Shown: positions 33,732-57,584, numbered from the stretch's first letter. The stretch is 58,155 nucleotides of DNA from Oscillospiraceae bacterium (GCA_017559985.1 JAFYPW010000037.1:1-58155), one strand, 5' to 3'. Program-made: numbers and translations. Notes: a model not told the origin generated them from the letters alone.

Positions 33732-33805
<74 letters not shown>

Positions 33806-33814
33806 TTTTTTTGT

Positions 33815-33891
<77 letters not shown>

Positions 33892-33929
33892 ACTACTTTT
33901 TCTTTTAAAAGTATCAGAGTTAGTCGTAT

Positions 33930-34007
33930 GGTGGGTATAGCTCAGTTGGTTAGAGTACCAGATTGTGGCTCTGGGGGTCGCCGGTTCGAATCCGGCTACC
34001 CACCCCA
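33930..34007 (+). tRNA. tRNA-His (anticodon GTG)
   Basis: GTGGGTA pairs with TACCCAC. The anticodon is GTG, the discriminator is C, and an encoded G precedes the acceptor stem (the G-1 identity base of tRNA-His). CCA is encoded. Confidence 0.95.
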
Positions 34008-34031
34008 TATTCTCACAGTCAAGAGAAACAT

Positions 34032-34107
34032 TGGGATGTAGCCAAGTCGGTAAGGCACCAGACTTTGACTCTGGCATTCGTAGGTTCGAGTCCTGCCATC
34101 CCAGCCA
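34032..34107 (+). tRNA. tRNA-Gln (anticodon TTG)
   Basis: TGGGATG pairs with CATCCCA. The anticodon loop CTTTGAC gives TTG. T arm GGTTCGAGTCC, encoded CCA. Confidence 0.95.
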
Positions 34108-34112
34108 AATAT

Positions 34113-34188
34113 GATCCGCTAGCTCAGTTGGTAGAGCACCGCCCTTTTAAGGCGGGTGTCCGGAGTTCGAGCCTCCGGCGGATCACCA
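34113..34188 (+). tRNA. tRNA-Lys (anticodon TTT)
   Basis: GATCCGC pairs with GCGGATC. The anticodon loop CTTTTAA gives TTT, and CCA is encoded. Last gene of the cluster, followed by a terminator. Confidence 0.95.
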
Positions 34189-39133: not shown

Positions 39134-40318
39134 TCACTCCTCATATAAAATTATTCCTGCTTTTTCATAGAACGGGTTTCCCTGCATAAGATATTCCTTC
39201 ACGGCGCGCTGCATAGAGCTTTTTTCGGGGAGAGTTTCCGCGGGAACCTTTTCGGGAACGTGGAAGAGGAAGAAATAAACATCTTCGGCATCCGATTTTC
39301 TCGGGTGCAGCAAAAAAAGCTTTGCAAAGCGCGTGATATTTGTTTCTTTGCCCATTATATCGAAAAGCGCGGGTTCAAGCATCCAGCTGTCGCAGATAAA
39401 GGCTTTGATTTTTCTTTCGGGATAATGCTTTTGAAGAATCGTCTTAAAGTCGGAAATTGCCGCGCGGCACATATCGGCAGAAAAAGGCTCGTTTGCGGGG
39501 ATGTGTATTCCGCAGACCTCATCACCCGGGCGGAGAACCTCGCGGTATCCGGAAAGTGTTATTTTTTCAGGGACACACTCTCCGCGTCCGTTTACGGAAA
39601 AACCTGAAACCGAACCGTCGGGAAACTCTTCTATCTCTGCAAAAAAGCTGCCCTTTTCGTCGTCTTGTCCTGCGCTTCCGAACATCATACCGCCGGTGTG
39701 CATCTTCGCACCGTCGATAAGGATTTTTATGTCGTCGCCTTTTTTATAGACACGAACGCGGTCGGAAAGTGTTTTGAATTCAAAATTAAGCCTTCCCACA
39801 CGGATGATTTTGTTATAGACGAAGAGAAGAAACCACTCGACATATCGCCGCATTCCGCTTCGGGAAAACATATCGTAATAGTCGTTGATTTCCGCGTCAA
39901 AGCCATAAAGCGTGTCGGAGATTACAGAGTGGGGAAGCCCTCTCCTTTCCATATCCGAAATCATATCTTCAAGAAACCACAAAAGCGCAAACATCGGCGA
40001 AAAGTCAGTCTCGGGCACTCCGCGGTCGGGCGGGGGAAGGATGGAAACATCGGCGTGGTCGCGTATTATGCAGTACAGAGTATAGTTATATAAAAGAAGG
40101 TCAGCGTCCTTCTTTATAATGTCTGCCGCGTGATATATGTCCTGCTTCCATTTCCGGAGAAAGCAATATTTCCTGTCAAGTTCTTCAATGCGCTCCTTTT
40201 CAGCAATCGCAGAGCCGCTTTTTTCAAAAAGGGAAAGCCCCTCTTTATAGAACGGGACGACTGCGTCAGAAAACTTAATACCAAGCCTTTGGCAGAAAGC
40301 GCGAGCAGCATTTTCCAT
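39134..40318 (-). CDS. Acyltransferase-like protein (NAT_N + GNAT_C type), copy 1
   Basis: A 394-residue protein I place in the two-domain acyltransferase family with an N-terminal helical domain (about 1-165) and a C-terminal GNAT-like domain (about 170-330), formerly DUF5596. Supporting features are RRYVEWFLLFVYNKIIRVGRLNFEF, GDEVCGIHIPANEPF, KTILQKHYPERKIKAFICDSWML and ETNITRFAKLF. The same features recur in the 44956-46173 product. The substrate is unknown. The ATG at 40318 with GAGGTGG 5 bases upstream is preferred to the GTG at 40327. It is upstream of the tautomerase gene. Confidence 0.65.
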   Translation of the reverse strand: MENAARAFCQRLGIKFSDAVVPFYKEGLSLFEKSGSAIAEKERIEELDRKYCFLRKWKQDIYHAADIIKKDADLLLYNYTLYCIIRDHADVSILPPPDRGVPETDFSPMFALLWFLEDMISDMERRGLPHSVISDTLYGFDAEINDYYDMFSRSGMRRYVEWFLLFVYNKIIRVGRLNFEFKTLSDRVRVYKKGDDIKILIDGAKMHTGGMMFGSAGQDDEKGSFFAEIEEFPDGSVSGFSVNGRGECVPEKITLSGYREVLRPGDEVCGIHIPANEPFSADMCRAAISDFKTILQKHYPERKIKAFICDSWMLEPALFDIMGKETNITRFAKLFLLHPRKSDAEDVYFFLFHVPEKVPAETLPEKSSMQRAVKEYLMQGNPFYEKAGIILYEE

Positions 40319-40367
40319 AGCTACCACCTCACGGGGATATTATACCATAAAGAACGGTGATATGCAA

Positions 40368-40400
40368 AGAACGGACACGATTTGTGTCCGTTCTGTTTTT
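40368..40400. terminator. Terminator-like hairpin
   Basis: AGAACGGACAC (40368-40378) and GTGTCCGTTCT (40384-40394) around GATTT. A T-run follows on the + strand and TTTGC on the minus strand. It most likely ends the ASRT-phosphotriesterase-creatinase-like operon on the minus strand. Confidence 0.7.
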
Positions 40401-40403
40401 TGT

Positions 40404-41591
40404 TTAGCAGTCAATCTCAAAAAGCTCTCTGCGGTAGTTTGTAAGCTCTTCAACGCCGTCGCGTGTTATGCAGACAACGTCTTCCATACGGAGGCCTGTT
40501 TCCGTTTTTGCAGAGCCGAGGAAGATGTCAACACAGAAGGACATTCCCTCTTCGAGGAGATAGTCCGCATCTGTCTCAATCCACGGCGCTTCACCCTCCA
40601 TAGTGCCGTTGCCGTGACACGGGCCGTAGAGAAGCCAGTCGCCATATCCCATCGAGGTTACGTTCTCAATGTGAAACTTTGCAACGTCTGCCGCGGGAAC
40701 TCCCGGACGGAGACGGTCTATAATGTCTTTTTGTGCCTTGTAGCCGACTTCAATAAGCTCGCGCTGCTCGTCCGTTGCTTTTCCGAAAACAACGGGGCGG
40801 CCGATGCTTGAAGCATAACCGCAGACTCTTGCGCCTATCTGGATAAACGTCATATCGCCCTTTTCAATCTTCTTGTCACGCGGGCGGCTTATTGCCTGGT
40901 TTGAACCCTTGCCGGTAAGAACCCATGGCGGATAAGATTCGCGCTCGGCGCCGAGCTCGTGCATCTTGCCGAGAGCAAGACCAACCACCTGCTGCTCTGT
41001 CATACCGACGCGGATGTTTTCAAGAACATAGTCAAAGGTTTCGGCGGTAATCTTTGCCGCAGCACGCATACAGGCAAGCTCGTTTTCTGTTTTGTGCATA
41101 CGGATGTTGTTTACAACGCTGTTTGCGTTTTCAATCTTAACGCCGCCGAATTCCGAAAGTGCCTCACCAAGTGCCTCGTAAACTCCGATTGTCATAAGCG
41201 GAAGTCCGGCAACGCCGAAGCGCGTGATTTTTTTATCGCCAAGAATCTCCCGGAAAATGCCTGCAAATGTGTCGAGCTTCTTGCCGGGATACTCCGGCTC
41301 GGACGACTCGCGGAATGCTTTGAGCAGACGGATTGTCGGGATAACCGAGCGGTCACTTGCATAGGTGAAGCTTTCGGGGCCTATGAGAAGCTGCGGCTCG
41401 CCCTCCTGCGGGATGAGAACGCCGGCAGTTTCAAAAGACGGCCAGTAGTTTGAAAAATAGCGGACATACTGCGGCTCTGCTTCGTTGCCGTAGGAGAGGA
41501 TGAAGTCATACCCCTCGGCCTTCATTGCGCTCTGAACCTTTTTTACGCGCTCTTTGTATTCCGAAAGCGGAATTTTAGGTAAGTTATTCAT
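40404..41591 (-). CDS. Creatinase-like M24 (pita-bread) protein lacking peptidase metal ligands
   Basis: A 395-residue protein with an N-terminal creatinase/prolidase domain (about 10-160) and an M24 catalytic-fold domain (about 165-390). Of the five metal ligands in aminopeptidase P, the two Asp are Gln251 and Ser262 (QIGARVCGYASSIGR), the His is kept (His326, CHGNG), one Glu is Asp355 and the last Glu is kept (Glu370, GLRMEDVV). Loss of metal with the fold retained is also seen in true creatinase, a C-N hydrolase, so a metal-independent amidine/amide hydrolase is possible. GAGGTG lies 6 bases before the ATG at 41591. It follows the phosphotriesterase gene by 16 bases. Confidence 0.82.
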   Translation of the reverse strand: MNNLPKIPLSEYKERVKKVQSAMKAEGYDFILSYGNEAEPQYVRYFSNYWPSFETAGVLIPQEGEPQLLIGPESFTYASDRSVIPTIRLLKAFRESSEPEYPGKKLDTFAGIFREILGDKKITRFGVAGLPLMTIGVYEALGEALSEFGGVKIENANSVVNNIRMHKTENELACMRAAAKITAETFDYVLENIRVGMTEQQVVGLALGKMHELGAERESYPPWVLTGKGSNQAISRPRDKKIEKGDMTFIQIGARVCGYASSIGRPVVFGKATDEQRELIEVGYKAQKDIIDRLRPGVPAADVAKFHIENVTSMGYGDWLLYGPCHGNGTMEGEAPWIETDADYLLEEGMSFCVDIFLGSAKTETGLRMEDVVCITRDGVEELTNYRRELFEIDC

Positions 41592-41607
41592 TTTTACACC
41601 TCGTTTT

Positions 41608-42648
41608 TTATATTTCTTCATCGCACAGCCAGCGTGCGGGATTTTTTACAAGCAGGGTTTCTATCTCGTCCTGTGTGATACCCTCGTCCTCCATCATCGG
41701 AACAATGTTTTTGAGAACGTGGTCATAGCCCCAGCCGCCGTAGGCGTGGGTGAGGTTTTTAAGGCACAGGTCACAGGAGAGAAGAATCTGTCTGAGGTAT
41801 CCGTCGTCTATCATTTTTTTGAGAAGCGTTACGCGGTCTGTGTCGTGAACGAAAAGACCGCAACCTGAGTTTCTCACCTCGCGACGGATGTAATATTCCT
41901 TGCCGAAGTTGTCAAACTCAACATAAACGCCTTTTTTGAGAAGCTCGTATATGTAATCCTCGCGGTTTTCGACGTCTATGTGGCTTATGCAGATTCTCGA
42001 CGGCGAAACACCCGCACCGAGGAGAATGTCGCACGCCTCGATTCCGTTTGTCGTCCACGGATTGATGTGAACGTTTATCGCGGCGTTCGTGTCCTTTGAA
42101 GCAATTGCCGCCGCGCGGAGAACGCGCCGCTCTTTATCGTCAAAAATTTCGCTTATGCCGATTTCACCGATATATCCCGCCGAAACTCCGTCAATGCCCT
42201 CGGTGAGCTCGTTGACCATAATATCTGCAATCTCGCGCTCTGACATATGAGAAAGGCTTTCGGGATGTGTTTCACCGACGTAAAAGCCCGTACCCATAAT
42301 TATATTGAGCCCTGTTTTTTTGGCTATGCGCGCAAGAGCCTTCGGGTCACGCCCGATTCCGGGAAGGGAAGCGTCAACCACCGTATCGCCGCCTGCTCTT
42401 TTAAAGAACAGAAGCTCTTCGGTTGCGAGGTCCTCGCTATCGAGCAGAAGGTTATCGCGAAGCGCGTAGCAGTCGCGGCTGAGTATGCCGAGGTTTGACA
42501 TCTCAACCTTCTGTGTTGCGGGGTCGTCTATACCTTCAACGGGGAGACTCTGATAAAACGCAGTGAGGTCGAGCAGGACGTGCTCGTGTGTCGTAACGGT
42601 CCCGAGTTCTTTTGCGGAAAGGGAGCCCAAAACACTTTTTACTTTCAT
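41608..42648 (-). CDS. Phosphotriesterase-family metal-dependent hydrolase (Php-like)
   Basis: A 346-residue TIM-barrel amidohydrolase. Metal ligands are visible: THEHV (HxH), a Glu in YIGEIGISE at the place of the bridging carboxylated Lys (as in E. coli Php), INVHIN, CISHIDV and LLSCDLC with the catalytic Asp. Homologues hydrolyse lactones, phosphotriesters or unknown natural substrates; a lactonase is the likeliest activity here. AAGGAG lies 8 bases before the ATG at 42648 (a TTG six bases earlier is ignored). It lies between the ASRT and creatinase-like genes, 12 and 16 bases from each. Confidence 0.87.
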   Translation of the reverse strand: MKVKSVLGSLSAKELGTVTTHEHVLLDLTAFYQSLPVEGIDDPATQKVEMSNLGILSRDCYALRDNLLLDSEDLATEELLFFKRAGGDTVVDASLPGIGRDPKALARIAKKTGLNIIMGTGFYVGETHPESLSHMSEREIADIMVNELTEGIDGVSAGYIGEIGISEIFDDKERRVLRAAAIASKDTNAAINVHINPWTTNGIEACDILLGAGVSPSRICISHIDVENREDYIYELLKKGVYVEFDNFGKEYYIRREVRNSGCGLFVHDTDRVTLLKKMIDDGYLRQILLSCDLCLKNLTHAYGGWGYDHVLKNIVPMMEDEGITQDEIETLLVKNPARWLCDEEI

Positions 42649-42660
42649 TGTCAAATCTCC

Positions 42661-43032
42661 TTATTCGGCGTGTGCCATGAGAGCCATATACGCCATATTT
42701 TCCTGCTGGACATCAAGACGGCCATACTGAACCATAACCCCGATGTCACTTTCTATTGCCATTGAGTATTGTTGGTTTATTTTGAGGTTTGCAATACCGA
42801 GCACAGAGTCATCGTCAGTATAGAAGGTTCTTATGCGCTTTGCCGGAACGGTAAAGGATATTCCTTCAACCGGGTCGCGGTCCTCGAAATAGATGCTGAT
42901 TTTAAGGTGAGCATCGTGCTCGTTCGTGTTGAGAACAAGTATACATTCGTGACCCTTGTAATCCGCTTCCGGGTCAGGCTTGGGGGACGGGCGGTATCCG
43001 TCTATGATATACCATTCTTTTTTTCCTTTCAT
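42661..43032 (-). CDS. Sensory rhodopsin transducer (ASRT) superfamily protein
   Basis: A 123-residue protein with the ASRT pattern: KEWYIIDGYRPSP, HECILVLNTNEHDAHLKISIYFEDRDPV, FTVPAKRIRTF and a C-terminal SDIGVMVQYGRLDVQQ. The prototype is the Anabaena sensory rhodopsin transducer, but most family members occur without rhodopsin and are predicted small-molecule (sugar-like) binding proteins. Here it heads a catabolic-looking operon divergent from an AraC regulator. AAGGAGG lies 8 bases before the ATG at 43032; a -10-like TATAAT sits at 43054-43059 on the minus strand. Confidence 0.82.
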   Translation of the reverse strand: MKGKKEWYIIDGYRPSPKPDPEADYKGHECILVLNTNEHDAHLKISIYFEDRDPVEGISFTVPAKRIRTFYTDDDSVLGIANLKINQQYSMAIESDIGVMVQYGRLDVQQENMAYMALMAHAE

Positions 43033-43124
43033 AACACATTCCTCCTTTTTTATATTATAATTCAAAAAAAGGAGGTCAACTATGGGGGTTTTGTGACAAA
43101 AAGTGGTGTGGGAAAACCTGTTTG

Positions 43125-43153
43125 TTGACTTTGGATTGATGTTATAATATAAT
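43125..43153 (+). promoter_or_regulatory. Promoter of the AraC regulator
   Basis: TTGACT (43125-43130), 17-base spacer, TATAAT (43148-43153). It lies in the 147-base divergent region shared with the ASRT operon. Confidence 0.7.
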
Positions 43154-43179
43154 CGAAAAGAAAAGGAAGTGTGAGAAGC

Positions 43180-44082
43180 ATGGACAAAGAGATTCCCTTT
43201 ATACGAAAAGAAGACCTTTTTTCAAAAGGCGCAAACGTACATATACACTTATCAACAGAGCTTGAAGAATATGTCGGGGTTTTGCACAAGCACAACTTCA
43301 TAGAGATTGTATATGTTGTCTCCGGCTGTGCAACTCACATTATAGGCGACAGGGAGTATCCCGTAAAGCGCGGAGATGTTTCGATTATAAATCCCGACGA
43401 AGCGCACGCGTTTATGTCCGACAAAAACTCGGAGGAAAAGTTCGTCGCGTATGACCTTATGTTCACACCTGATTTTCTCGGCAGTAGCTCTCCTGCGGGA
43501 GACGATTTTTCAAAGCTTGCAAACTCGTTTCTGTTTTACTCGCTCTTTCCCGAAAGTGGAGACTTTAAAGAAAGGTTCAACCTCATTGCGGACTGCGGCT
43601 ATGAAATAAGCTCGATTTTCGAAAAAATTTATGACGAGTATAAAGCAGAGCGCAGAAGCTATGTAAACTTAATCCGTCTCTATGTTGCCGAAATCGTCAT
43701 AAGGCTTTCAAGAAAGCTTGAAGCGGAGGAGGAAAACAGAATAACCCCTGCCCAGAAACAGCTTGTTATGGAGACTGTGCGCTATATCGAGCAGAATTAC
43801 AGCATAAAAATAAATGCCGATGAGATAGCGTCAAAGCTGTTTTTCAACAAGAACTATATCTCGCGTCTGTTCAGGAAGGAGACGGGGTTGTCGATTCACG
43901 AGTTTGTGCGCAATATCCGTATGAAGGAGACGTGCAAGCGTCTTGAAAATACGAACGACACGATAGCCGATATAGCCTCCGACTGCGGATTCAACGATAT
44001 GAAAAGCTTCTATCAGATGTTCAAGGCATATACGGGGAAAACACCCAAAGCCTACCGTGATTCATCTGCGAGAGAAAAATAA
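43180..44082 (+). CDS. AraC family transcriptional regulator
   Basis: A 300-residue regulator with an N-terminal cupin-like ligand domain (about 20-120: HKHNFIEIVYVVSG, YPVKRGDVSIINPDEAH) and a C-terminal double helix-turn-helix (about 200-298: KINADEIASKLFFNKNYISRLFRKE, then IADIASDCGFNDMKSFYQMFKAYTGKTP). It is divergent from the ASRT-phosphotriesterase-creatinase-like operon, which it probably activates on binding the pathway's substrate (inference). The ATG at 43180 follows AAAGGAAG; a GTG at 43171 is less likely. Confidence 0.9.
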   Translation: MDKEIPFIRKEDLFSKGANVHIHLSTELEEYVGVLHKHNFIEIVYVVSGCATHIIGDREYPVKRGDVSIINPDEAHAFMSDKNSEEKFVAYDLMFTPDFLGSSSPAGDDFSKLANSFLFYSLFPESGDFKERFNLIADCGYEISSIFEKIYDEYKAERRSYVNLIRLYVAEIVIRLSRKLEAEEENRITPAQKQLVMETVRYIEQNYSIKINADEIASKLFFNKNYISRLFRKETGLSIHEFVRNIRMKETCKRLENTNDTIADIASDCGFNDMKSFYQMFKAYTGKTPKAYRDSSAREK

Positions 44083-44114
44083 AAAGCTGCAATCATTTTC
44101 GATTGCAGCTTTTT
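44081..44114. terminator. Bidirectional terminator
   Basis: AAAAAGCTGCAATC and GATTGCAGCTTTTT around ATTTTC, between the convergent AraC and isomerase genes. Confidence 0.9.
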
Positions 44115-44117
44115 TGT

Positions 44118-44933
44118 TTAATACTTTTGCAGAACCTTGACCGAATGGGGAATGTCGAAATCCTCGATTGCGACGGCGCCGTTATAGCCGTTGTCGGCTA
44201 AAATTTTCATACACATATCAATATCGACGATGCCTTCCCCCATCGGAGCAGAAGAAATCCAGTTGCCGCCGAGAGTGCGCCGCCAACCTTCTTCGGGGGT
44301 TGTCTTTCTGAAATAGTCTTTTGCGTGAACGTGTAAAATGTCCTTTGAAAAGGCTTTGAAAAACTCTTCGCCCGGAACGTCTACAAAGAGAGAGTTTCCC
44401 ATATCACCGCAGACGCCCACGTTTTTACACCTGCGCTTCATTTCGTTAAAGAAAGTGGCGTAGCCTTCAATACCGTTCACATAAAAGCCCTGGTCTTCGT
44501 AAAGACAGGTAACGCCAAAGTCTGCTGCGTGCTTTGCAACCTCCTCCGAGGCATCAAGTCCGACTTCCATAGCCTCGTCAAATGGCGGAAGCTCGTCCTC
44601 CTGCACCCAGGGAAGAACGGTGTGGTGCAGAAATGGAGAACCGAGCGCCTCTGCTATTTCTGCCTGGCGTTTGAGTGATTCAACCTCGCGCGGGGAGTTG
44701 TACAGATTTGAAAAAACAGAGCAACACGTAACTTTCAGCCCGCGTGATTCCAGAATTTTTCTTGCTTCTTTTGCTTCATCTGTGTTTTTTAAGAGAAGAC
44801 CGCTCTCCTCTGCGGTAACATCAGAAAAGGTCTCAACCGAGGTGCAGCCAAGGCGGACTGTTTCGTCTGCGGCGCCCTCCCAGCCAAGCTTTTCGACGAG
44901 CCCGGGAAACGGTGCATAAATTGAAATATCCAT
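44118..44933 (-). CDS. Sugar phosphate isomerase/epimerase (xylose-isomerase-like TIM barrel)
   Basis: A 271-residue AP-endonuclease-2/xylose-isomerase-like TIM barrel. Likely metal-site segments are VTCLYEDQGFY, VGVCGDMGNSLF, ILHVHAKDYF and the C-terminal GAVAIEDFD (Glu). Such enzymes isomerise or epimerise sugars, inositol derivatives or hydroxypyruvate-like compounds; the substrate here is unknown. AGGAG lies 7 bases before the ATG at 44933. It follows acyltransferase copy 2 by 22 bases and is convergent with the AraC regulator, so it belongs to the same catabolic neighbourhood. Confidence 0.83.
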   Translation of the reverse strand: MDISIYAPFPGLVEKLGWEGAADETVRLGCTSVETFSDVTAEESGLLLKNTDEAKEARKILESRGLKVTCCSVFSNLYNSPREVESLKRQAEIAEALGSPFLHHTVLPWVQEDELPPFDEAMEVGLDASEEVAKHAADFGVTCLYEDQGFYVNGIEGYATFFNEMKRRCKNVGVCGDMGNSLFVDVPGEEFFKAFSKDILHVHAKDYFRKTTPEEGWRRTLGGNWISSAPMGEGIVDIDMCMKILADNGYNGAVAIEDFDIPHSVKVLQKY

Positions 44934-44955
44934 AATTTTTCTCCTGTTATGTTTT

Positions 44956-46173
44956 TTACCAAGGGATAAATCCGTTGAACTGATGGACAAACGTTCCATC
45001 CAAAGCCTTTTTCTTTATGCCGCGCATAAGGGAGTTTCCCTCCGGCAGCGCCGAAAAGTCAATCTCGTCGACCGATTTTCCGCGGATGTCAAAAACATAA
45101 AGAAAAGCATCGGTCGCGCTGTTCTTTGCGGGATAGACGAAGAAATTATTTTGAAAAGCCAATATGTTTGAAGTGGGCTTTAAAATGTCTGAAAGCTCGG
45201 GCGAGAGCATCCAGCAGATGGTGACAAAGCCCTTGAATGTGATTTCAGGAAAACAGCGGTTGAAAACTTCGCGTGCGCGCGCAAAGTACGCTTTAACGGC
45301 ATCCTTTGAAAAATCTCCGGTGCCCGGGATGTGAACTTTTATAACATCGTCGCCAGGCACGAAAATAGGAGTCCACTCGCTTTTTGAAAGCGTTGTGCGC
45401 TCGTTTTCGGCAAGGCGCGTGGCCTTGTTTACTGCATAGCCGATGTAGGCGTCGTCAGTCTCAACGAGGTCGGCAGTATATGCGCCGTTTTCGTCTGTGC
45501 AGCCATATGAGCCGAGAATGTGCCCGCACTTGTGCAGCGTTGTATCACACATAAGGGCGCAAAGCTCGCCGTTCCTGTTTGCAAAAACCTTTGCGGGGCG
45601 GCTTGAGTTTTGGTGAATCTCAAAGCGGAGGCTTCCGATGGTAAGGTGGTTGGAGTATATGGCAACGCGATGCACCATAAATTCCTCTTTTGCAAAGGAA
45701 GGCTTTCCGAGTCTGTCGCACGAGTCGCCGAAGAGAGAATCTGCCCATATAAGGCTTGCACGGAGAATGTCCGCCTCTACACCGCGTGCTGCAAATTCTG
45801 CCCACGTCGGGCGGATGTGAGCGAGCACGGGAAATATTGCAAAGCAATCATAACCGATTGTGTTTTCAACACCTTCGGGAGCTTTTGGAAACTCAATTTC
45901 AGGGAAGGCTTCAAGCGAACCTTTCTTTTTTCCGAGAATGTGATATATCGTTTTTGCAAGGAGGCAAAGCTCCGGAACTTCCGTAACGCAGGGGAGTGCT
46001 GAGAGAACCACGTCGAGCTGTTTCGGAAGAGCGTTGCATTCCGAATGAAGAGCGCGGATATATTCCTCCGTGAGCCACTCGGGGATCCGGGGTTCGGAAA
46101 GCGCGAGGCTATACGCCTCATCCCAGAATGGGGATTCAAATTTTATTCCGAGTTTTTTGCGTACGTCAGACAT
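44956..46173 (-). CDS. Acyltransferase-like protein (NAT_N + GNAT_C type), copy 2
   Basis: A 405-residue protein related to the 39134-40318 product: VAIYSNHLTIGSLRFEIHQ, VPGDDVIKVHIPGTGDF, AREVFNRCFPEITFKGFVTICWMLSPEL and TSNILAFQNNFFV correspond to the same segments of copy 1. The N-terminal helical domain is about 1-170 and the GNAT-like C-terminal domain about 175-330. Two such genes around one small-molecule cluster suggest acylation of a pathway compound (inference). The start at 46173 follows GAGGG. The only upstream promoter visible is that of tRNA-Ser, beyond a terminator. Confidence 0.65.
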   Translation of the reverse strand: MSDVRKKLGIKFESPFWDEAYSLALSEPRIPEWLTEEYIRALHSECNALPKQLDVVLSALPCVTEVPELCLLAKTIYHILGKKKGSLEAFPEIEFPKAPEGVENTIGYDCFAIFPVLAHIRPTWAEFAARGVEADILRASLIWADSLFGDSCDRLGKPSFAKEEFMVHRVAIYSNHLTIGSLRFEIHQNSSRPAKVFANRNGELCALMCDTTLHKCGHILGSYGCTDENGAYTADLVETDDAYIGYAVNKATRLAENERTTLSKSEWTPIFVPGDDVIKVHIPGTGDFSKDAVKAYFARAREVFNRCFPEITFKGFVTICWMLSPELSDILKPTSNILAFQNNFFVYPAKNSATDAFLYVFDIRGKSVDEIDFSALPEGNSLMRGIKKKALDGTFVHQFNGFIPW

Positions 46174-46229: not shown

Positions 46230-46318
46230 TGGCGGAGAGGGCGGGATTCGAACCCGCGTGCGATTTCTCGCAAACTGATTTCGAGTCAGCCCCGTTATGA
46301 CCACTTCGATACCTCTCC
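46230..46318 (-). tRNA. tRNA-Ser (anticodon CGA)
   Basis: On the minus strand GGAGAGG pairs with CCTCTCC. The anticodon loop CTCGAAA gives CGA, a long variable arm (TTGCGAGAAATCGCA) marks the class II shape of tRNA-Ser, and CCA is encoded. 89 bases with CCA. Confidence 0.95.
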
Positions 46319-46420: not shown

Positions 46421-48709
46421 TCAGCAAACCGTGAGGGTTGTCTTTTTTGATATATCAAGCGTGAGCTTGTTGTCACAAACGGAGAAGGTGTTTCCGTCAC
46501 CGTCGCGGAAGGTGAGAGCTTTCTGTGTTGCAGGGAATTCGAGCGTGACTTCGCCTGCAAATTTCGGGGAGATTGTAACGCTTGTGACGTCAAAGTCATT
46601 CCATTCTGCGTCAAGCTCATAGCCACCGCGTGCGCAAAGACCGCGGAAACTTCCGCTGTGCCAGACGTCGGGAAGTGCGGGGACGAGCGCGATAACGCCC
46701 TCGTGGCTCTGGATGAGGGCCTCGGCAACGCCTGAAACATATGACATATTTCCGTCTATCTGCCAGCACTTTGCGCTGAGGTCCCAAAGGTTTTCGTTTG
46801 TGCAGTTGTAGAAGAAGTTGTTTATCATATTGAAAAGGTCGTTACCCTTGCGGAGACGTGCAAGATGCCCCATAAGCCAGCCGAGGCTCCAGCCGACGTT
46901 GAGAGCACAGGCGCCGACAACATTCGGTCTGCCGTTTATGCGGCTGAAAATTGTTTTGTCAATAGCTTCCGAAAGCTCGGGAGTGGAGCGGTTTATTGCA
47001 CAGTCCGGGAAATGTGCAAAGGTGTGCGAGAGGTGGAAGTGGCCCGGCTCCGTCTCCTCATAGTCCTCTGTCCATTCCTGGATACGTCCTGTTTTTGAAA
47101 TCCTGAACGGCGGGAGCTTTTCTTTTGCCTTGCGGATTTCTTCGACAATTTCATCCTCAATGCCGAGAACTGCGGAGGCGTCGAGGAAGTTGCGGAACAA
47201 ACCGCCGATGATGGAGTTGTCCATCGTAGAGCCGAGGGTAAGGTAACACGCATATTTCTCGCCGTTTTCATCGTTGACCCAGTAGCAGTTTTCGGGGCTT
47301 GTTGACGGGCCGTGAACGAGATAGCCGTCCTTGTTTTCAACCATAACATCAAGGAAGAAAATGGCTGCCTCGCGGATGAATTCATACGCCTCGTTGCGGA
47401 GGAAGTCCTCGTCCTTTGTGAAGAGGTAGTGCTCCCACATATGATATGAAAGCCAGCTTGCACCGTGAGACCAGATGCCCCAGAGCCCGTCGGCGGGGGT
47501 GGTGAATTTGTATATATCGCTCAGGTGGTGAACAACGCAGCCCCGTGCCTTGTAGCCTATGCTTGCCGTCTTCTTGCCCGATTCGAGAAGATATTCGTTC
47601 ATATAGTCAAAGAGCGGGGTGTGGCAATCGGAAAGGTTTGCAACCTCCGCCGGCCAGTAGTTTGCCTGAAGGTTGATGTTTGTGTGGTAGTCTGCGCTCC
47701 ATTCGTTGCCAAGCCCCTTTACCCACAAGCCCTGCAGATTTGCGGGAAGGCAACCCGGGCGACTTGATGAAGCGAGGATGTAGCGGCCGAATTGCCACTG
47801 ATATGTAACAGGTCCGCCGGAATTTGTGATATTTGCCTTTAAAATGCGGAATCTGTTATACATACCAACAGTTTCGCACTCAGAAAATTCGGGAATTGAA
47901 ATATCAGCACGCGACATAACGGAGATGAAGTCCTCAATATGGCGGGTTTTGAGTGTTTCATAGTCTGTGATTTCAGGGAACTTTATTGCTGTTTTAAACG
48001 CGTCGCCGTGGCGGAATTCCGTTGCGATGGAGATGAATACGGTAAATGCTGTTGTGTCTGAAATATGCAGGTCGCCATCAGCGCAGGAAACCTTGCCGTC
48101 TGTCAGAACACGCGCCTTGACGCAGAATTTGTGATCGCCGAAGACCGTATTGCAGACTGCCGTAAGCTCGTTTTTCTCAGAAGTTACGGAAAGCGTATGC
48201 TCACGCTCGAAGCAGAGGAGCGCATCAAGAGGTGCGTTTGAAGATGTTACACGATAGACAATAACATTATCCGGGTATGAGGAGAAGCATTCACGGGTGT
48301 AGTGAGAGCCGTCTTTGTCATACTCAACCTTTGCAACACCGCGCATAAGGTCAAGCTCGCGGCGGTAGTTCTTGCTTCTTTCGTTGTCGTGGAGCCAGAT
48401 TTTGAGCTGACCTGCCGACTCGTAAGAACGGATTCTTGAAAAACAGTCACGGAAAATCTTCTTTGCGAGCTTGTCGCCCTCAGCCTCGCGTCCTTCAAGG
48501 AAGAGGTTGCGGATCTGAGAAAGCTTGTCCGACATATTGGGGTTGGGTATGCCGACGTTGTGAGAAGACCAGACGGTTTCTTCGTTCAGGTAAAGATTTT
48601 CGTGTGTGATGCCGCACATAAGCGTAGCACCCAGCCTGCCGTTTCCGACGGGGTAAGAATCCTCCCATTTTTGGGGAAGAGTAGTATTAAAAAGCTTGTA
48701 TTCACGCAT
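46421..48709 (-). CDS. Glycoside hydrolase family 95 (alpha-L-fucosidase type)
   Basis: A 762-residue inverting GH95 enzyme, most members of which release alpha-1,2-linked L-fucose (some act on L-galactose). Features are an N-terminal beta domain (YPVGNGRLGATLMCGITHENLYLNEET), an (alpha/alpha)6 catalytic barrel with ADYHTNINLQANYWPAE (activating Asn pair), VHGPSTSPEN and CWQIDGNMSYVSGVAEAL, and a C-terminal beta domain. There is no signal peptide, so it acts on imported oligosaccharides. GAGGTG lies 6 bases before the ATG at 48709. It is divergent from two further hydrolase-type genes. Confidence 0.92.
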   Translation of the reverse strand: MREYKLFNTTLPQKWEDSYPVGNGRLGATLMCGITHENLYLNEETVWSSHNVGIPNPNMSDKLSQIRNLFLEGREAEGDKLAKKIFRDCFSRIRSYESAGQLKIWLHDNERSKNYRRELDLMRGVAKVEYDKDGSHYTRECFSSYPDNVIVYRVTSSNAPLDALLCFEREHTLSVTSEKNELTAVCNTVFGDHKFCVKARVLTDGKVSCADGDLHISDTTAFTVFISIATEFRHGDAFKTAIKFPEITDYETLKTRHIEDFISVMSRADISIPEFSECETVGMYNRFRILKANITNSGGPVTYQWQFGRYILASSSRPGCLPANLQGLWVKGLGNEWSADYHTNINLQANYWPAEVANLSDCHTPLFDYMNEYLLESGKKTASIGYKARGCVVHHLSDIYKFTTPADGLWGIWSHGASWLSYHMWEHYLFTKDEDFLRNEAYEFIREAAIFFLDVMVENKDGYLVHGPSTSPENCYWVNDENGEKYACYLTLGSTMDNSIIGGLFRNFLDASAVLGIEDEIVEEIRKAKEKLPPFRISKTGRIQEWTEDYEETEPGHFHLSHTFAHFPDCAINRSTPELSEAIDKTIFSRINGRPNVVGACALNVGWSLGWLMGHLARLRKGNDLFNMINNFFYNCTNENLWDLSAKCWQIDGNMSYVSGVAEALIQSHEGVIALVPALPDVWHSGSFRGLCARGGYELDAEWNDFDVTSVTISPKFAGEVTLEFPATQKALTFRDGDGNTFSVCDNKLTLDISKKTTLTVC

Positions 48710-48738
48710 TGTTTTCACCTCGTGCAAAAGATAGAAAA

Positions 48739-48767
48739 AGTATATGATATAAAAAAATAAAAGTCAA
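48739..48767 (-). promoter_or_regulatory. Promoter of the GH95 gene
   Basis: On the minus strand: TTGACT, 17-base spacer, TATACT, about 30 bases before the start codon. Confidence 0.7.
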
Positions 48768-48835
48768 CGTGTTTTACGGAAATTATAAGCATCAATAGAT
48801 AAAACGATACATTGAACGCTTTTTTGTTTTTTGTG

Positions 48836-48864
48836 TTGCAAAAAAACGTTTCTTATGGCATAAT
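48836..48864 (+). promoter_or_regulatory. Promoter of the TIM-barrel/GH43-like operon
   Basis: TTGCAA (48836-48841), 17-base spacer, CATAAT (48859-48864). It is back to back with the GH95 promoter in a 187-base gap, so one regulator could govern both sides. Confidence 0.6.
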
Positions 48865-48896
48865 AAGTATAATATTTCACAATATGGGAGGACTTT

Positions 48897-50288
48897 ATGA
48901 AGAAGCTGACGTTGGAACAGCACAAGGCGAGAATAGAAAATCTTCGCGAAGTGAGAAAGAACATAAAAAAGAGTACCCGCGAGTTCAGAATAAATAACTA
49001 CCTCGCAGGTCAGATAATATATTTTCTTGGCGACTATCCTAACAAAATGAGCATAAAGCCGACGGAATATGACTATAACCTTTTGAAGTCGTATGCCGAA
49101 AACGGCGTAGATATGATTCAGGTTCACGAAGAGTGGAACGACAGTATCGAGAAATACGGCTCAGATAAATGGCACAGTAACGACCACGAGGGAATGAAGG
49201 AGTTTGTTGAGCTTTGCCATCATTTCGGCATAAAGATTATTTCATATTGCTCTGCAAGCTATATTCACGAGGGCTCAAAGCATTTCCGCGAGAACTTCTG
49301 CCAGAGCAAGGAAGGCTGTACGGATATGCATTACAGCTATCGCCAGGGCTGGGCGGGAAGCGAGCATTGGCGCGAGTTTATAATTCCGCGCACATTCGAC
49401 ATTATGGACACCTACGGCGTTGACGGCATCTTCAACGACTGGGGCTATGAATGGCATATGAGCCCATATATAGAAATTCCGCCGGAGCGCAGAAACTACG
49501 AGACTGTTCCGCTTGAAAGATATGACCCGGAAGCAGAAGACCTCATCCACATTCTGTATGACGGAGTAAAGTCACGCGGTGGTATATACAAGCTTCACGT
49601 GGGGCAGAACAACAGCGCACCTGTCAGGTGGAAGTGCTACGACTACCTGTGGGTTGGCGAGAATAATTTCGAGACGGAGTTCGGTGGCGGAAAGCATCTT
49701 GACCCGTTCCTTGTTCCGTGCCCGGATAAACCGCGCCTTACAAACTGGGGAGCAGAGCGCTTTGATGCGGATGCTTATTTTGCAATGACGATTCCGTTTG
49801 TTCAGTTCCCGCTTCTCACACACGGCCGTCCCACAATGGGCCGCTGCATAGATGTTCCCGGTGTTACGCAGTATAACACAACGCAGGAAGACCACCTCTA
49901 TCATTATTTTGAAAAGGTGCGCGACTTTGCCGATAAGCACCCGGACGGACCGTACACATACAGCGAATGGTCGCAGATCCCGGACGATCCGGAAGATTAT
50001 CCGAGATGGTGCCGCTACCTTAAACTCTATAAGGAAATGACAGAGGATGAAACGGTCGCATTTATGGAAATCCGTGAGTCGGAGGATGTTTTGTCCGAAA
50101 TTCCCAAAAATGTTTTTATCACTGAATTTGTCAATGAAAACCGATATATGGTTGTTTCAAACCTGACTGATGAACCGTATGAACTGGAACTTCGCGATAA
50201 CTGGACTGACAGGGTGTCAGGCGCGACGGGAAACCGGTTCACAGTTCCTGTAAAGCGTCTGTTATTCCTTAAAAAGAATAATGACTAG
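48897..50288 (+). CDS. Putative TIM-barrel glycoside-hydrolase-like protein
   Basis: A 463-residue cytoplasmic protein I cannot assign to a numbered family. VDMIQVHEEWND, IKIISYCSASYIHEGS, YGVDGIFNDWGYEWHMSP (a possible catalytic Asp after a beta strand) and DYLWVGENNFE look like successive strands of a GH-type (beta/alpha)8 barrel, and a small beta domain ends the protein (MVVSNLTDEPYELEL, as in many GH C-termini). GGGAGG lies 6 bases before the ATG. It is followed after 27 bases by a GH43-like gene and is divergent from a GH95 fucosidase, so an oligosaccharide role is likely. Confidence 0.65.
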   Translation: MKKLTLEQHKARIENLREVRKNIKKSTREFRINNYLAGQIIYFLGDYPNKMSIKPTEYDYNLLKSYAENGVDMIQVHEEWNDSIEKYGSDKWHSNDHEGMKEFVELCHHFGIKIISYCSASYIHEGSKHFRENFCQSKEGCTDMHYSYRQGWAGSEHWREFIIPRTFDIMDTYGVDGIFNDWGYEWHMSPYIEIPPERRNYETVPLERYDPEAEDLIHILYDGVKSRGGIYKLHVGQNNSAPVRWKCYDYLWVGENNFETEFGGGKHLDPFLVPCPDKPRLTNWGAERFDADAYFAMTIPFVQFPLLTHGRPTMGRCIDVPGVTQYNTTQEDHLYHYFEKVRDFADKHPDGPYTYSEWSQIPDDPEDYPRWCRYLKLYKEMTEDETVAFMEIRESEDVLSEIPKNVFITEFVNENRYMVVSNLTDEPYELELRDNWTDRVSGATGNRFTVPVKRLLFLKKNND

Positions 50289-53904: not shown

Positions 53905-54183
53905 ATGACAAAAAGAAAAAACTCAATAAAGGGCGAGCTTGAAAAAATTGTGCGTAAAAAAATCTCCCCCGAAGAAGCCTCGCAATACGGGCTTGAAGCT
54001 ATGGATACGAAGAACATGAGTATCCTCCGTGCGATAGCGATGGCGCAGGTAAAGCGCGGGCTTGAAGGGGACCTCAAAGCCGCCGTGTTTATTGAGGAGC
54101 TTCTCGGCAACGACGAAGACGGCGGAAGTGCGACGCCGTTTGATGTTGTTGTAAAGGTTGTCGGCGAAAGGAATGGAGATTAA
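53905..54183 (+). CDS. Putative phage terminase small subunit
   Basis: A 92-residue basic-then-acidic protein. KGELEKIVRKKISPEEA followed by RAIAMAQVKRGLEGDLKAAVFIEELLG resembles the short small-terminase/DUF5681-like proteins found just before phage large subunits (helices with a GDxKAA turn). The assignment leans on position: its end overlaps the large subunit start. The ATG at 53905 has AAGGAGGTGA 6 bases upstream. A longer frame from 53845 would start within the leader hairpin region. Confidence 0.6.
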   Translation: MTKRKNSIKGELEKIVRKKISPEEASQYGLEAMDTKNMSILRAIAMAQVKRGLEGDLKAAVFIEELLGNDEDGGSATPFDVVVKVVGERNGD

Positions 54184-55480
54184 AATTACGCCGCGGCAGC
54201 GCGACTTCATTCTTGCAGAGGCGGGAGAGGTGCTTTTCGGAGGTGCGGCAGGCGGCGGAAAATCTTACGGCCAGCTCGTAGATGCTTTTCTGTTTGCAAT
54301 TAAATATCCGAAATCAAAACAGCTTATTCTGCGCCGTACTCTGCCGGAGCTTGAAAAGTCGATTATAAGAAGTGCGATCGGGCTTTACCCGCGTGAGGTT
54401 TTTAAATATAAAAGTGCGCAACACGAGGGTGTATTTAAAAACGGCTCGATAATTGACTTTGGCTATTGCGACTCGGAAAACGATGTTTACCGTTACCAGT
54501 CGGCAGAGTATGACGTTATACGCTTTGACGAGCTTACCCATTTTACCGAGCAGATGTACATATACCTGATTTCGCGTGTGCGCGGGGCAAACAGCTTTCC
54601 GAAACAGGTTAAAAGCTCAACAAACCCCGGCGGAATAGGACATTCATGGGTAAAGGGAAGGTTTATCGACATCGGTGCGCCCGATGAGGAGCACCTGGGA
54701 CGGATTTTCATACCCTCGCGCGTTACAGACAACACGTTTCTTATGAAGTCGGACCCCGGGTATATAAAACGCCTTGAAAAGCTTTCGCGAAAAGACCGCG
54801 AAGCTCTGCTTTACGGAAATTGGGATATTTTTGACGGACAGTATTTTACTGAATGGAACAGGGAAATACATGTTGTGCGACCGTTTGAAATCCCGGCTTC
54901 CTGGCGGAGATATTTCGTTATGGACTATGGTCTTGACATGCTAGCGGGATACTGGATAGCCGTGGATATGTACGGCAGAGCATATGTTTACCGCGAGCTT
55001 TACGAGAGCGGACTTATAATCTCGGAGGCGGCAAGAAAAATCTGTAAAAACAGCACAGAAAAGGTCTATGCAAACATAGCCCCGCCTGATCTCTGGAACA
55101 GACGGCAGGACACGGGCAAAAGTGCAGCTGAAATATTCGCCGAAAACGGAGTACCGCTCGTTGCCGCAAAAAATGAGCGGGTTCAGGGATGGTATAACTT
55201 AAAAGAGTGGCTCTCGCCGTACCGTGATGAGCAGGGAGCGATGTGTGCATCACTCCGGGTTTTTGAAAACTGCATAAACCTGATAAGAACGCTCCCGCAA
55301 ATCACGAGAGACAGCAAAAACCCGAATGATGTGGCGCGCAACCCGCACGAGCTTACGCATGCACCCGATGCGATAAGATATTTCGTTGCGGGACGCCCTG
55401 CACCATCACAAAAACTGAGCACAGAAGCCGAAAACTCCGAATTTGAAAACCAGATAGAGCGGCTTCTGAGCTTTTCATAA
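54173..55480 (+). CDS. terL: Phage terminase large subunit
   Basis: DNA-packaging motor ATPase-nuclease of 435 residues. Walker A GGAAGGGKS (23-31), Walker B YDVIRFDE (113-120), the C-motif-like SSTNPGG, the nuclease domain from YFVMDYGLD and a late acidic segment HAPDAIRYF mark the family. The ATG at 54173 overlaps the small-subunit gene by 11 bases; an in-frame TTG at 54158 is a possible alternative. The frame is intact. A portal gene usually follows, but here the next gene is a propeller-like protein. Confidence 0.9.
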   Translation: MEIKITPRQRDFILAEAGEVLFGGAAGGGKSYGQLVDAFLFAIKYPKSKQLILRRTLPELEKSIIRSAIGLYPREVFKYKSAQHEGVFKNGSIIDFGYCDSENDVYRYQSAEYDVIRFDELTHFTEQMYIYLISRVRGANSFPKQVKSSTNPGGIGHSWVKGRFIDIGAPDEEHLGRIFIPSRVTDNTFLMKSDPGYIKRLEKLSRKDREALLYGNWDIFDGQYFTEWNREIHVVRPFEIPASWRRYFVMDYGLDMLAGYWIAVDMYGRAYVYRELYESGLIISEAARKICKNSTEKVYANIAPPDLWNRRQDTGKSAAEIFAENGVPLVAAKNERVQGWYNLKEWLSPYRDEQGAMCASLRVFENCINLIRTLPQITRDSKNPNDVARNPHELTHAPDAIRYFVAGRPAPSQKLSTEAENSEFENQIERLLSFS

Positions 55481-55496
55481 AAACGGAGGAAAAAAT

Positions 55497-57584
55497 ATGG
55501 CAAAAAAAACAAAACTGTCGGGCATTTCCCGCAACGCAATCTACACCAAAAGCTACACAAGGTTTCGTGGTGTTGATTTTTCAACCGATGCGTCAATGGT
55601 CGACGACGAGCACTCTCCGCACGCGAAAAATCTTATTTCCGATGCAAACGGTTTTCCCGAAAAACGCGTCGGGTGGAGAACTTTAAAAAACTTTGACGCG
55701 CGCATAAACGGCGTTTACAGCTTTGACGACGGCAATACAAGCTGTACTGTCATCCACGCGGGCGATAAGATGTATAAGCTTTCGGATGATGAGAAAACCC
55801 TGCTTATGGAAGGGATTGCCGACAGAAAGTCAACAGGAAAATACTTTAAGGGAAAGTTCTGTATCCTTACGGGCGAGGAATATCTCGTCTTTAACGGAGA
55901 AAGCTGCACTCTCGCGTGCGAGTCAGACGAAACATATGCCCCGATAACTCATATTTTACGTGAGGCGGCAAAGCTTGATACAGCACGCTTCGAAAAAAGC
56001 TCGGTGTATGAAGATTGGAGTGAAGAAAATGTTCTCAACCACTCCGACGGAACGGCTGTAAACCTCGGAAACGCGCCGGATAAAACACAAATTAACCTTA
56101 TTTCGGGAAAGCGGAGAAATACGTTTGAATACAGATGCAATTTCAAAGCACTTTTCGTTCTTGATGAAACGATAAAACCGGGAACCCGCGTAACTATGCG
56201 TTGTATGTCGACCGGAGAAGAAATTTTCAGCAGGGTTTGTGATGTGGACGATGAGAAAACATATAAGGTTTACACAACCAAGTCAACTGATTCCGAGCTT
56301 GAAGGCATAGATAAGGACAAGCTTATTCTTATGGATTCGGAACTTACATCAAACAACGTATATCTGATTATGGGAAACAACAAAAACAGGAAAGTCGGCT
56401 TTGTTGCCTGCAACATTGACAAGAGTAAACTCACAGACTTCTCGTATACCCCGGGCGTGGATAACTTCTCAATAGAGTTCACCCACGAATATGAGGGATA
56501 CAAGGAACGCATAAACAAGTGTACCGTGCTTGACGTGTTTGAAAACCGCGTGTTCTTTGCGGGAAATCCCGAATACCCGCACGTTGACTGGTATTCGGGC
56601 GTTAACGATCCGCTGTTTGTTCCCGACATAAACTATACGGAAATCGGAATGGATTCAAGCCGCATAATGGGCTATCTCCGCACAGGAAACAAGCAGGCGA
56701 TACTCAAAAGCGACGGAGACGACGCGACGATATATATGCGCTCATATTCAAACCTCTCCGACGGCTCTGTCATATTCCCGATAGAGCAGGGCACTTCGGG
56801 TATCGGGGCAGTGGCGGAGCACGCAATCTGCACCTTCCTCGACGACCCGATGTATCTCACGCGAAACGGAATGTATGCGATAGCCGTGCAGGATATATCA
56901 AGCGAACGTGCGCTCTGTGTCCGCTCTACACGGATAAACCGGAACCTTTTAAAGGAAAAGGGTCTTTCGGATGCCGTTATGTGCGAGTGGAACGGATACC
57001 TCGTGCTGTGCGTAAACGGAAACGCATATGTCGCAGACGCCGCGCAGAAGCAGTTTCCCTTAAATAAGACAAACTCGTTTGAGTATGAGTGGTACTACTG
57101 GACAAACATCCCTGCCCGCGTGTTTTATGAAAGCGCGGGCGAGCTGTACTTCGGAACGGAGGACGGAAGGGTGTGCAAGTTCAATTCCGACCTTGTTGAC
57201 ATGAACGGTATTGTAACAAGCGAGGCATATTCAGACGACGGAGAGGCAATAGTAGCCGAATGGGCGACAAACCTTTCAAGCGACGGAAGCTTCATGCAGG
57301 AAAAAACGCTCGTGAAAACAGGCTCGGGCGTTCTTCTCAAATCATATAACAGCTCGGGAGTTTCGGTGTATGTGCGCACCGAGTTCGACTCCGCGCGGGA
57401 GATTGCAAAATTCAGCTTTGAGAAGCTCCCGCGGGACATAGGCGCTCAAAGCGTTGTGCCGTTTAATACAAAGATAAAAAAATACGGTACAATTCAGGTA
57501 ATTTGCCGCAACGATGAGACAAACCACGCTTTTGGCATCGGCGGAATAATAAGAAGATATTTTTACGGAAAGACAAAAAAATAG
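55497..57584 (+). CDS. Phage-type propeller-like virion protein, function unproven
   Basis: A 695-residue protein without signal peptide. The opening RFRGVDFSTDASMVDDEHSPHAKN-like stretch, then GFPEKRVGWRTL, is the start style of phage tail/neck proteins with many short beta blades (for example the P22 gp10-type stabilisation family). Later segments such as VFENRVFFAGNPEYPHVDWYSG and AICTFLDDPMYLTRNGMYAI repeat the pattern of a propeller. It is 16 bases after terL with GGAGGA before the ATG, and a coiled-coil protein follows by 12 bases. An exact family could not be checked. Confidence 0.55.
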   Translation: MAKKTKLSGISRNAIYTKSYTRFRGVDFSTDASMVDDEHSPHAKNLISDANGFPEKRVGWRTLKNFDARINGVYSFDDGNTSCTVIHAGDKMYKLSDDEKTLLMEGIADRKSTGKYFKGKFCILTGEEYLVFNGESCTLACESDETYAPITHILREAAKLDTARFEKSSVYEDWSEENVLNHSDGTAVNLGNAPDKTQINLISGKRRNTFEYRCNFKALFVLDETIKPGTRVTMRCMSTGEEIFSRVCDVDDEKTYKVYTTKSTDSELEGIDKDKLILMDSELTSNNVYLIMGNNKNRKVGFVACNIDKSKLTDFSYTPGVDNFSIEFTHEYEGYKERINKCTVLDVFENRVFFAGNPEYPHVDWYSGVNDPLFVPDINYTEIGMDSSRIMGYLRTGNKQAILKSDGDDATIYMRSYSNLSDGSVIFPIEQGTSGIGAVAEHAICTFLDDPMYLTRNGMYAIAVQDISSERALCVRSTRINRNLLKEKGLSDAVMCEWNGYLVLCVNGNAYVADAAQKQFPLNKTNSFEYEWYYWTNIPARVFYESAGELYFGTEDGRVCKFNSDLVDMNGIVTSEAYSDDGEAIVAEWATNLSSDGSFMQEKTLVKTGSGVLLKSYNSSGVSVYVRTEFDSAREIAKFSFEKLPRDIGAQSVVPFNTKIKKYGTIQVICRNDETNHAFGIGGIIRRYFYGKTKK

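Follow-up and report, generated by a model that had tools for sequence, protein, structure and literature searches.

Analysis of a 58,155-nt stretch of DNA from an Oscillospiraceae bacterium (GCA_017559985.1 JAFYPW010000037.1:1-58155; hereafter the window) identified a three-gene operon as one version of a conserved cassette. The operon encodes an ASRT-family protein, a phosphotriesterase (PTE)-family hydrolase and a pita-bread protein of the M24 family. Comparison of protein sequences across related loci indicates that the constant part of the cassette consists of ASRT and a metal-less M24 protein, and that the metal-dependent hydrolase is exchangeable. Because the genes that neighbour the cassette in relatives are sugar genes, we are somewhat inclined to regard the operon as an AraC-controlled, PTE-type member of a sugar-catabolism cassette acting on an unusual or modified sugar.

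The operon occupies 40404-43032 on the minus strand of contig C27, in a genome of 1.41 Mb and 82 contigs whose relatives in named collections are Clostridia and Oscillospiraceae metagenome-assembled genomes (MAGs), mostly from ruminant guts. The ASRT gene (42661..43032, minus strand, 123 aa) matches Pfam PF07100 (5.8e-33, 113.8 bits). It is followed by the gene for the metal-dependent hydrolase, which has the amidohydrolase fold and is of the bridging-Glu type (41608..42648, minus strand; PF02126, 1.7e-67, 228.4 bits), and by that for the M24 protein, which lacks the metal Asp pair and belongs to a non-peptidase subfamily (40404..41591, minus strand; PF00557, 6.5e-39, 134.3 bits, plus Creatinase_N). 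Starts were refined to ATG 43032 for ASRT, preceded by the Shine-Dalgarno sequence AAAGGAGG, ATG 42648 for PTE and ATG 41591 for M24, which gives intergenic gaps of exactly 12 and 16 nt. An AraC-family regulator with a cupin-type ligand domain (43180..44082, plus strand, ATG 43180; HTH_18, 80.9 bits; AraC_binding) is transcribed divergently. From the sequence and a promoter scan, the region common to the ASRT and AraC genes (43033..43179) contains a promoter-like TTGACT-17-TATAAT for the AraC gene at 43125-43153 (11/12 match) and is the likely AraC operator region. A preliminary description of this DNA had reported the same tight operon, gap lengths and divergent regulator, and had named two GNAT_C genes, a TIM-barrel gene and a tautomerase gene nearby; all of these genes are present with Pfam matches, and the gaps agree to the base with the refined starts.

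The order ASRT-PTE-M24 is repeated in five other Clostridia MAGs (L050, L051, L052, L053 and L054), with 61-83% identity to the window for PTE and 68-80% for M24; in L051, a divergent AraC protein encoded beside ASRT is 61% identical to that of the window. An ASRT profile run against 84,980 species genomes yielded 80 loci; it was built on a narrower alignment (A2) because the broad one (A1) had no conserved stretch for the scan. An M24 of the window subfamily lies near ASRT in about 65 of these 80 loci, a rate that is inflated, partly by construction, because the scan profile was made mainly from M24-linked ASRTs. Where open reading frames (ORFs) were called, the two genes are adjacent in 50 of 59 loci and on the same strand in 57, with a median gap of 1 nt. 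ASRT and M24 protein distances are strongly correlated (Mantel r 0.90, 0/2000 permutations), as are those of M24 with PTE (0.87) and with creatininase (0.85).

Linkage was also observed in 59 related genomes, where subfamily M24 proteins split cleanly from ordinary prolidases (at least 278 bits versus at most 181 bits). Nine of the 14 subfamily copies lie beside ASRT, one of them by position alone; other copies either run into a contig end or have creatininase, but no ASRT, beside them (L126, L127, L130 and L131), and those in L128 and L129 stand alone. All three copies of the window PTE type in these genomes are beside ASRT and M24 (at least 497 bits, next best 152). One PTE copy from the same genus (G003:C107:14952-15959) has a single in-frame TGA in the search match. 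Across 398 genomes of the phylum, ASRT occurs in 18, subfamily M24 in five and both in four (hypergeometric p ~1e-5, calculated by hand with relatedness ignored). The genome that carries the window has three ASRT genes, each beside a subfamily M24, with PTE (C27), creatininase (C70) or M81/MlrC (C49) as the third gene. The association of ASRT, M24 and PTE exceeds chance, and the conservation of the neighbourhood, which the preliminary description had suggested looking for in related genomes, is borne out.

The same comparison reveals the exchange of the third gene. Clustering of neighbour ORFs places PTE in 14 loci and the creatininase family in 38, and both together in none. Creatininase-type loci have a regular layout of divergent AraC, M24, ASRT and creatininase. 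The hydrolase label is strongly clustered on the M24 tree, and PTE adjoins several separate M24 clades. The partner creatininase conserves the metal residues of its fold (E29, H31 and D40 by alignment to 3A6G, H112 and E115 by motif), and has weak homology with solved creatininases (E 3e-06). An Ara/Fuc-isomerase-like gene, which accompanies or replaces M24, is present in seven of the 14 PTE loci (L056, L058, L062, L064, L066, L069 and L070). Among NCBIfam families it is closest to sulfoquinovose isomerase, with 84 bits where the cut-off is 700, and sulfoquinovose was rejected as a candidate. We also observed that ASRT and a monosaccharide ABC importer are joined by two divergent metal-less M24 paralogs in L059 (7983-10373), L063 (8712-11586) and L065 (3956-13039), from MAGs labelled Clostridium symbiosum, Clostridiaceae and Blautia, respectively.

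Both metal Asp residues are replaced in all 66 M24 members, by N/Q/A/T and S/A/T/I/V, respectively, and one metal Glu is Asp in 64 of them. In the window protein, the five metal-ligand positions D-D-H-E-E read Q261, S272, H336, D365 and E380 (405-aa frame). With both metal Asp lost, this pita-bread protein without a metal pair is not a metallopeptidase, and the label "metal-poor" given in the preliminary description extends to every member. Other residues are kept across the 66 members, namely R54, Y55, E64, R246 (65/66), H336, E342, E344, R378 and E380. An AlphaFold2 model (pLDDT 91.4, pTM 0.90) has the prolidase/creatinase fold, with near ties between prolidase (Z 40.9), creatinase (39.7-40.0) and the ectoine hydrolase DoeA (39.5). 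The prolidase-site His position, which we take to be equivalent to the catalytic His232 of creatinase, is I/V/M in 66/66 members (I244 in the window). As far as this His can be mapped, through the prolidase position rather than directly to creatinase, the window M24 is probably not a canonical creatinase. Profile searches would call such proteins Xaa-Pro peptidase, and many gut and rumen M24 genes are likely misannotated in this way.

The window ASRT is a stand-alone protein that matches positions 2-118 of the 119 of the family profile (cut-off 25), has relatives in the PDB (2II7 and 1NC7) and is predicted to bind a sugar or another small molecule. The family is annotated elsewhere as "sensory rhodopsin transducer". 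De Souza, Iyer and Aravind (2009, PMC2739507) describe an SHExxCxxN signature of which the His and Cys contact the ligand in TM1070. The corresponding window motif, GHECILVLN, keeps the His, has Gly in place of Ser and Leu at the Cys position. M24-linked ASRTs read GHExx[I/M/L]xxN, with Gly in 57/59 and Cys in 0/59, and ASRTs from loci without M24 nearly all keep Ser and Cys, including those of Deinococcus, Klebsiella and Sinorhizobium plasmids. Because close relatives of the window ASRT that have no M24 in reach are of the Gly type as well, the motif marks an ASRT subfamily and not M24 linkage. On the conjugative plasmid pINF078-VP of Klebsiella pneumoniae (L042), ASRT adjoins MFS sugar porter, SDR, mandelate-racemase-type and Asp/Glu-racemase genes.

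The PTE metal site (H23, H25, E164, H196, H225 and D295, numbered from a TTG frame; subtract two for the ATG start) is complete in 14/14 proteins and binuclear. The best solved relative is the phosphotriesterase-related protein PTER (193 bits), all six metal ligands of which are kept. The substrate residues of PTER, R204, R233 and H300 (PMC13311154), correspond in the printed alignment to Pro199, Val228 and Cys297, the Cys being invariant in the family. Because these residues differ, a PTER-like N-acyl function was dropped.

The genes around related cassettes point to sugars. L077 combines M24 and ASRT with RhaS (449 bits, cut-off 342), RhaI (553, cut-off 531) and a rhamnulokinase-like gene, and L079 has the same layout; a rhamnulokinase-like gene is also beside M24-creatininase in L126, and an L-ribulokinase gene follows ASRT in L120. 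RbsABC-type importers are found in L059, L062, L063, L065, L120 and L136, and importer genes of the RhaSTPQ type are also carried by cassette relatives. The earlier remark that no transporter is present thus holds inside the window cluster but not for the cassette. DUF4432, Gfo/Idh/MocA, GH38, GH36, GH3, GH20, apiosidase-like and rhamnosidase genes occur in same-strand runs with relatives or nearby. Profile searches of the window cluster detected no rhamnose/fucose isomerase, kinase or aldolase, which are present in some relatives only. No small ORF stood out as RhaM/RhaU (rhamnose mutarotase) in L077 or L079, where no profile search was made, so that a replacement of RhaM by M24/ASRT would be a mere guess. 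In Thermotoga, TM1070 may be the rhaM gene of the rhamnose-induced rhaMADBC operon (PMC3750489).

If the sugar-catabolism interpretation is right, the third hydrolase would act on an imported sugar or a derivative of one, opening or removing a lactone, ester or amide; ASRT would bind this sugar or its product, and M24 would work on or bind the same intermediate via its retained pocket (R54, R246, H336, E342, E344, D365, R378 and E380). The resulting aldose or acid could then pass to the Ara/Fuc-isomerase-like enzyme or to ordinary deoxyhexose/pentose catabolism, and AraC would sense the compound and turn the operon on. We found no characterised pathway that accounts for all members, in keeping with the undescribed route that the preliminary description had envisaged; a catabolic role is likely given the sugar context, and the detoxifying role named with it is unsupported. 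Several observations weigh against this interpretation. Four of the 14 subfamily M24 copies lack ASRT (L126-L129), two being beside creatininase and two without a partner hydrolase; L056, L062 and L064 have ASRT-PTE and the isomerase without M24; and the construction of the scan profile inflates the linkage rate, as stated above. Since the sugar context varies by locus (rhamnose, arabinose, glycans), a single common substrate is not evident. More tentatively still, ASRT and the metal-less M24 might act jointly as a sugar-processing unit of a new kind, which different sugar pathways would each combine with a ring-opening hydrolase of their own (PTE, creatininase or M81). Such a unit could, for example, interconvert anomers or ring forms, or break a C-N, C-O or lactone bond of a sugar without the help of metal. 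If true, this would be the real biochemical role of ASRT, which is known chiefly as the partner of rhodopsin or as a presumed sensor.

The genes flanking the operon were counted as cluster members in the preliminary description, but NAT genes are near only two of the 80 related loci, and the conserved unit does not extend to the NAT, TIM-barrel and tautomerase genes next to it. A 12-bp hairpin (40368..40394) lies between M24 and the NAT/GNAT_C gene (40327-39134). Because a promoter-like site on the minus strand (40368-40339) overlaps the edge of this hairpin, transcription of the NAT gene is probably initiated independently. The tautomerase gene follows (39137-38901; PF01361, 29.1 bits, cut-off 22). 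On the other side are the TIM-barrel gene (44933-44118, ATG 44933; AP_endonuc_2, 91.5 bits) and, beyond it, the second GNAT_C gene (46191-44956); the two GNAT_C proteins score 116.7 and 91.8 bits with Pfam and are 26% identical to each other. This block adjoins tRNA-Ser(cga) (46230-46318), a common type of island insertion point, near which no integrase was seen, and GH95 and fucosidase-like genes occupy 46421-50288. Elsewhere in the window, five tRNA genes (Gly, Arg, His, Gln and Lys; 33732-34188) precede the gene that encodes a secreted trypsin-like protein, and a terminase large subunit gene (PF04466) followed by a large ORF without Pfam match (54158-57584) is probably a prophage edge. Several families without Pfam match are found near the cassette in relatives. 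In eight loci, a protein of ~270 aa, often duplicated (L055 8352-9991, L054 8353-9991, L050 9149-9979), is encoded immediately upstream of the ASRT-PTE-M24 genes or downstream of the isomerase-like gene; it is absent from the window. Families of ~710 aa (L118 5928-8069 and relatives) and ~680 aa (L069 92-2137) adjoin creatininase-type cassettes in eight loci and PTE-type cassettes in four, respectively, and are possibly glycosidases outside assigned families. Nor did Pfam match the protein groups c5, c9 and c16, which are also encoded near the cassette.

Three other explanations were considered. M24 and ASRT could both be non-catalytic and serve as a pair for binding or regulation, controlling the hydrolase or importer by sugar level, in line with the proposal of De Souza et al. 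(PMC2739507) that ASRT senses sugars via protein contacts. The loss of metals and His from M24, the matched divergence of the two proteins and the existence of non-enzymatic M24 folds, with SPT16 among the fold matches of the model, all favour such a pair. We nevertheless find it unlikely, given that about ten invariant polar pocket residues across divergent M24s exceed what a bare scaffold needs, and that the two divergent M24 copies in the L059, L063 and L065 operons look like two enzymatic steps.

Creatininase and M24 together are the layout of the known creatinine pathway. By analogy, the hydrolase would open a cyclic amide, M24 would act on a guanidino or N-acyl compound by C-N bond cleavage, and ASRT would sense that compound. 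The commonest third gene is indeed of the creatininase family with conserved metal residues, creatinases are among the closest folds to the M24 model (Z 39.7-40.0), and the PTE relatives include the N-acetyltaurine amidase PTER. However, prolidases fit the M24 fold equally well, the partner matches solved creatininases weakly (E 3e-06), and no urease or sarcosine genes are among the neighbour families listed. The guanidino compounds suggested in the preliminary description were dropped as lead idea because the M24 site His is missing, with Ile/Val/Met in 66/66 at the position taken as equivalent to creatinase His232, and because the neighbours are sugar genes; we consider a creatinine-like route decidedly improbable. 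An N-acyl cycle, with the flanking NAT acyltransferases supplying the substrate of a PTE that acts as an N-acyl amidase in the manner of mammalian PTER, seems very improbable. It draws on PTER being the best solved relative, on the two NAT/GNAT_C genes flanking the operon and on a NAT_N/GNAT_C gene inside the L032 operon run, but it is at odds with the three replaced PTER substrate residues, the rarity of NAT genes at related loci, and the hairpin and promoter-like site that separate the NAT gene from the operon.

The cassette has features in common with, and differences from, several known systems. Prolidases (Xaa-Pro dipeptidases, M24B) are the closest fold and sequence family to the window M24 (Z 40.9; Pfam M24) but, unlike them, cassette members lack both metal Asp in 66/66 and have one Glu changed to Asp. 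Creatinase (M24B, PDB 1CHM and 7YTO) shares the pita-bread fold and metal independence, with Ile/Val/Met at the catalytic-His position of the cassette proteins, 16-18% identity and prolidases scoring equally. The window PTE has the fold and the binuclear, Glu-bridged site of PTER, an N-acetyltaurine/N-acetyl-beta-alanine hydrolase, without its three substrate residues. It also shares the PTE fold of E. coli Php and the phospho-furanose lactonases, yet scores far under the NCBIfam cut-offs for either type (157 of 486 and 91 of 630, respectively). L-rhamnose operons (RhaSTPQ-RhaI-RhaK) have the metal-less M24 and ASRT within or beside one in L077, whereas the window has no Rha genes; none of the genes in the main text of a paper that compares rhamnose regulons (PMC3870299) carries a peptidase-, creatin- or rhodopsin-type name. 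The cassette also resembles the ASRT/ASRAH sugar operons of De Souza et al. (PMC2739507), who place ASRT together with isomerase, aldolase, kinase or ABC transporter genes and propose it as a sugar sensor. Common features are a stand-alone intracellular ASRT, sugar-metabolism genes and a monosaccharide ABC transporter; M24, PTE and creatininase partners go unmentioned in the accessible text, and the signature Cys is absent here. Beyond that study, we found no published link of ASRT with M24 and PTE or creatininase in the open-licence literature; ASRT sugar operons are already known, and the M24/PTE/creatininase version is new within the literature searched. Most bacteria that carry ASRT have no rhodopsin. 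Our results provide one ASRT subfamily with a constant partner and a residue pair that separates two subfamilies, and they narrow the broad "sugar sensor" idea to a concrete set of proteins, namely ASRT, M24 and an exchangeable hydrolase.

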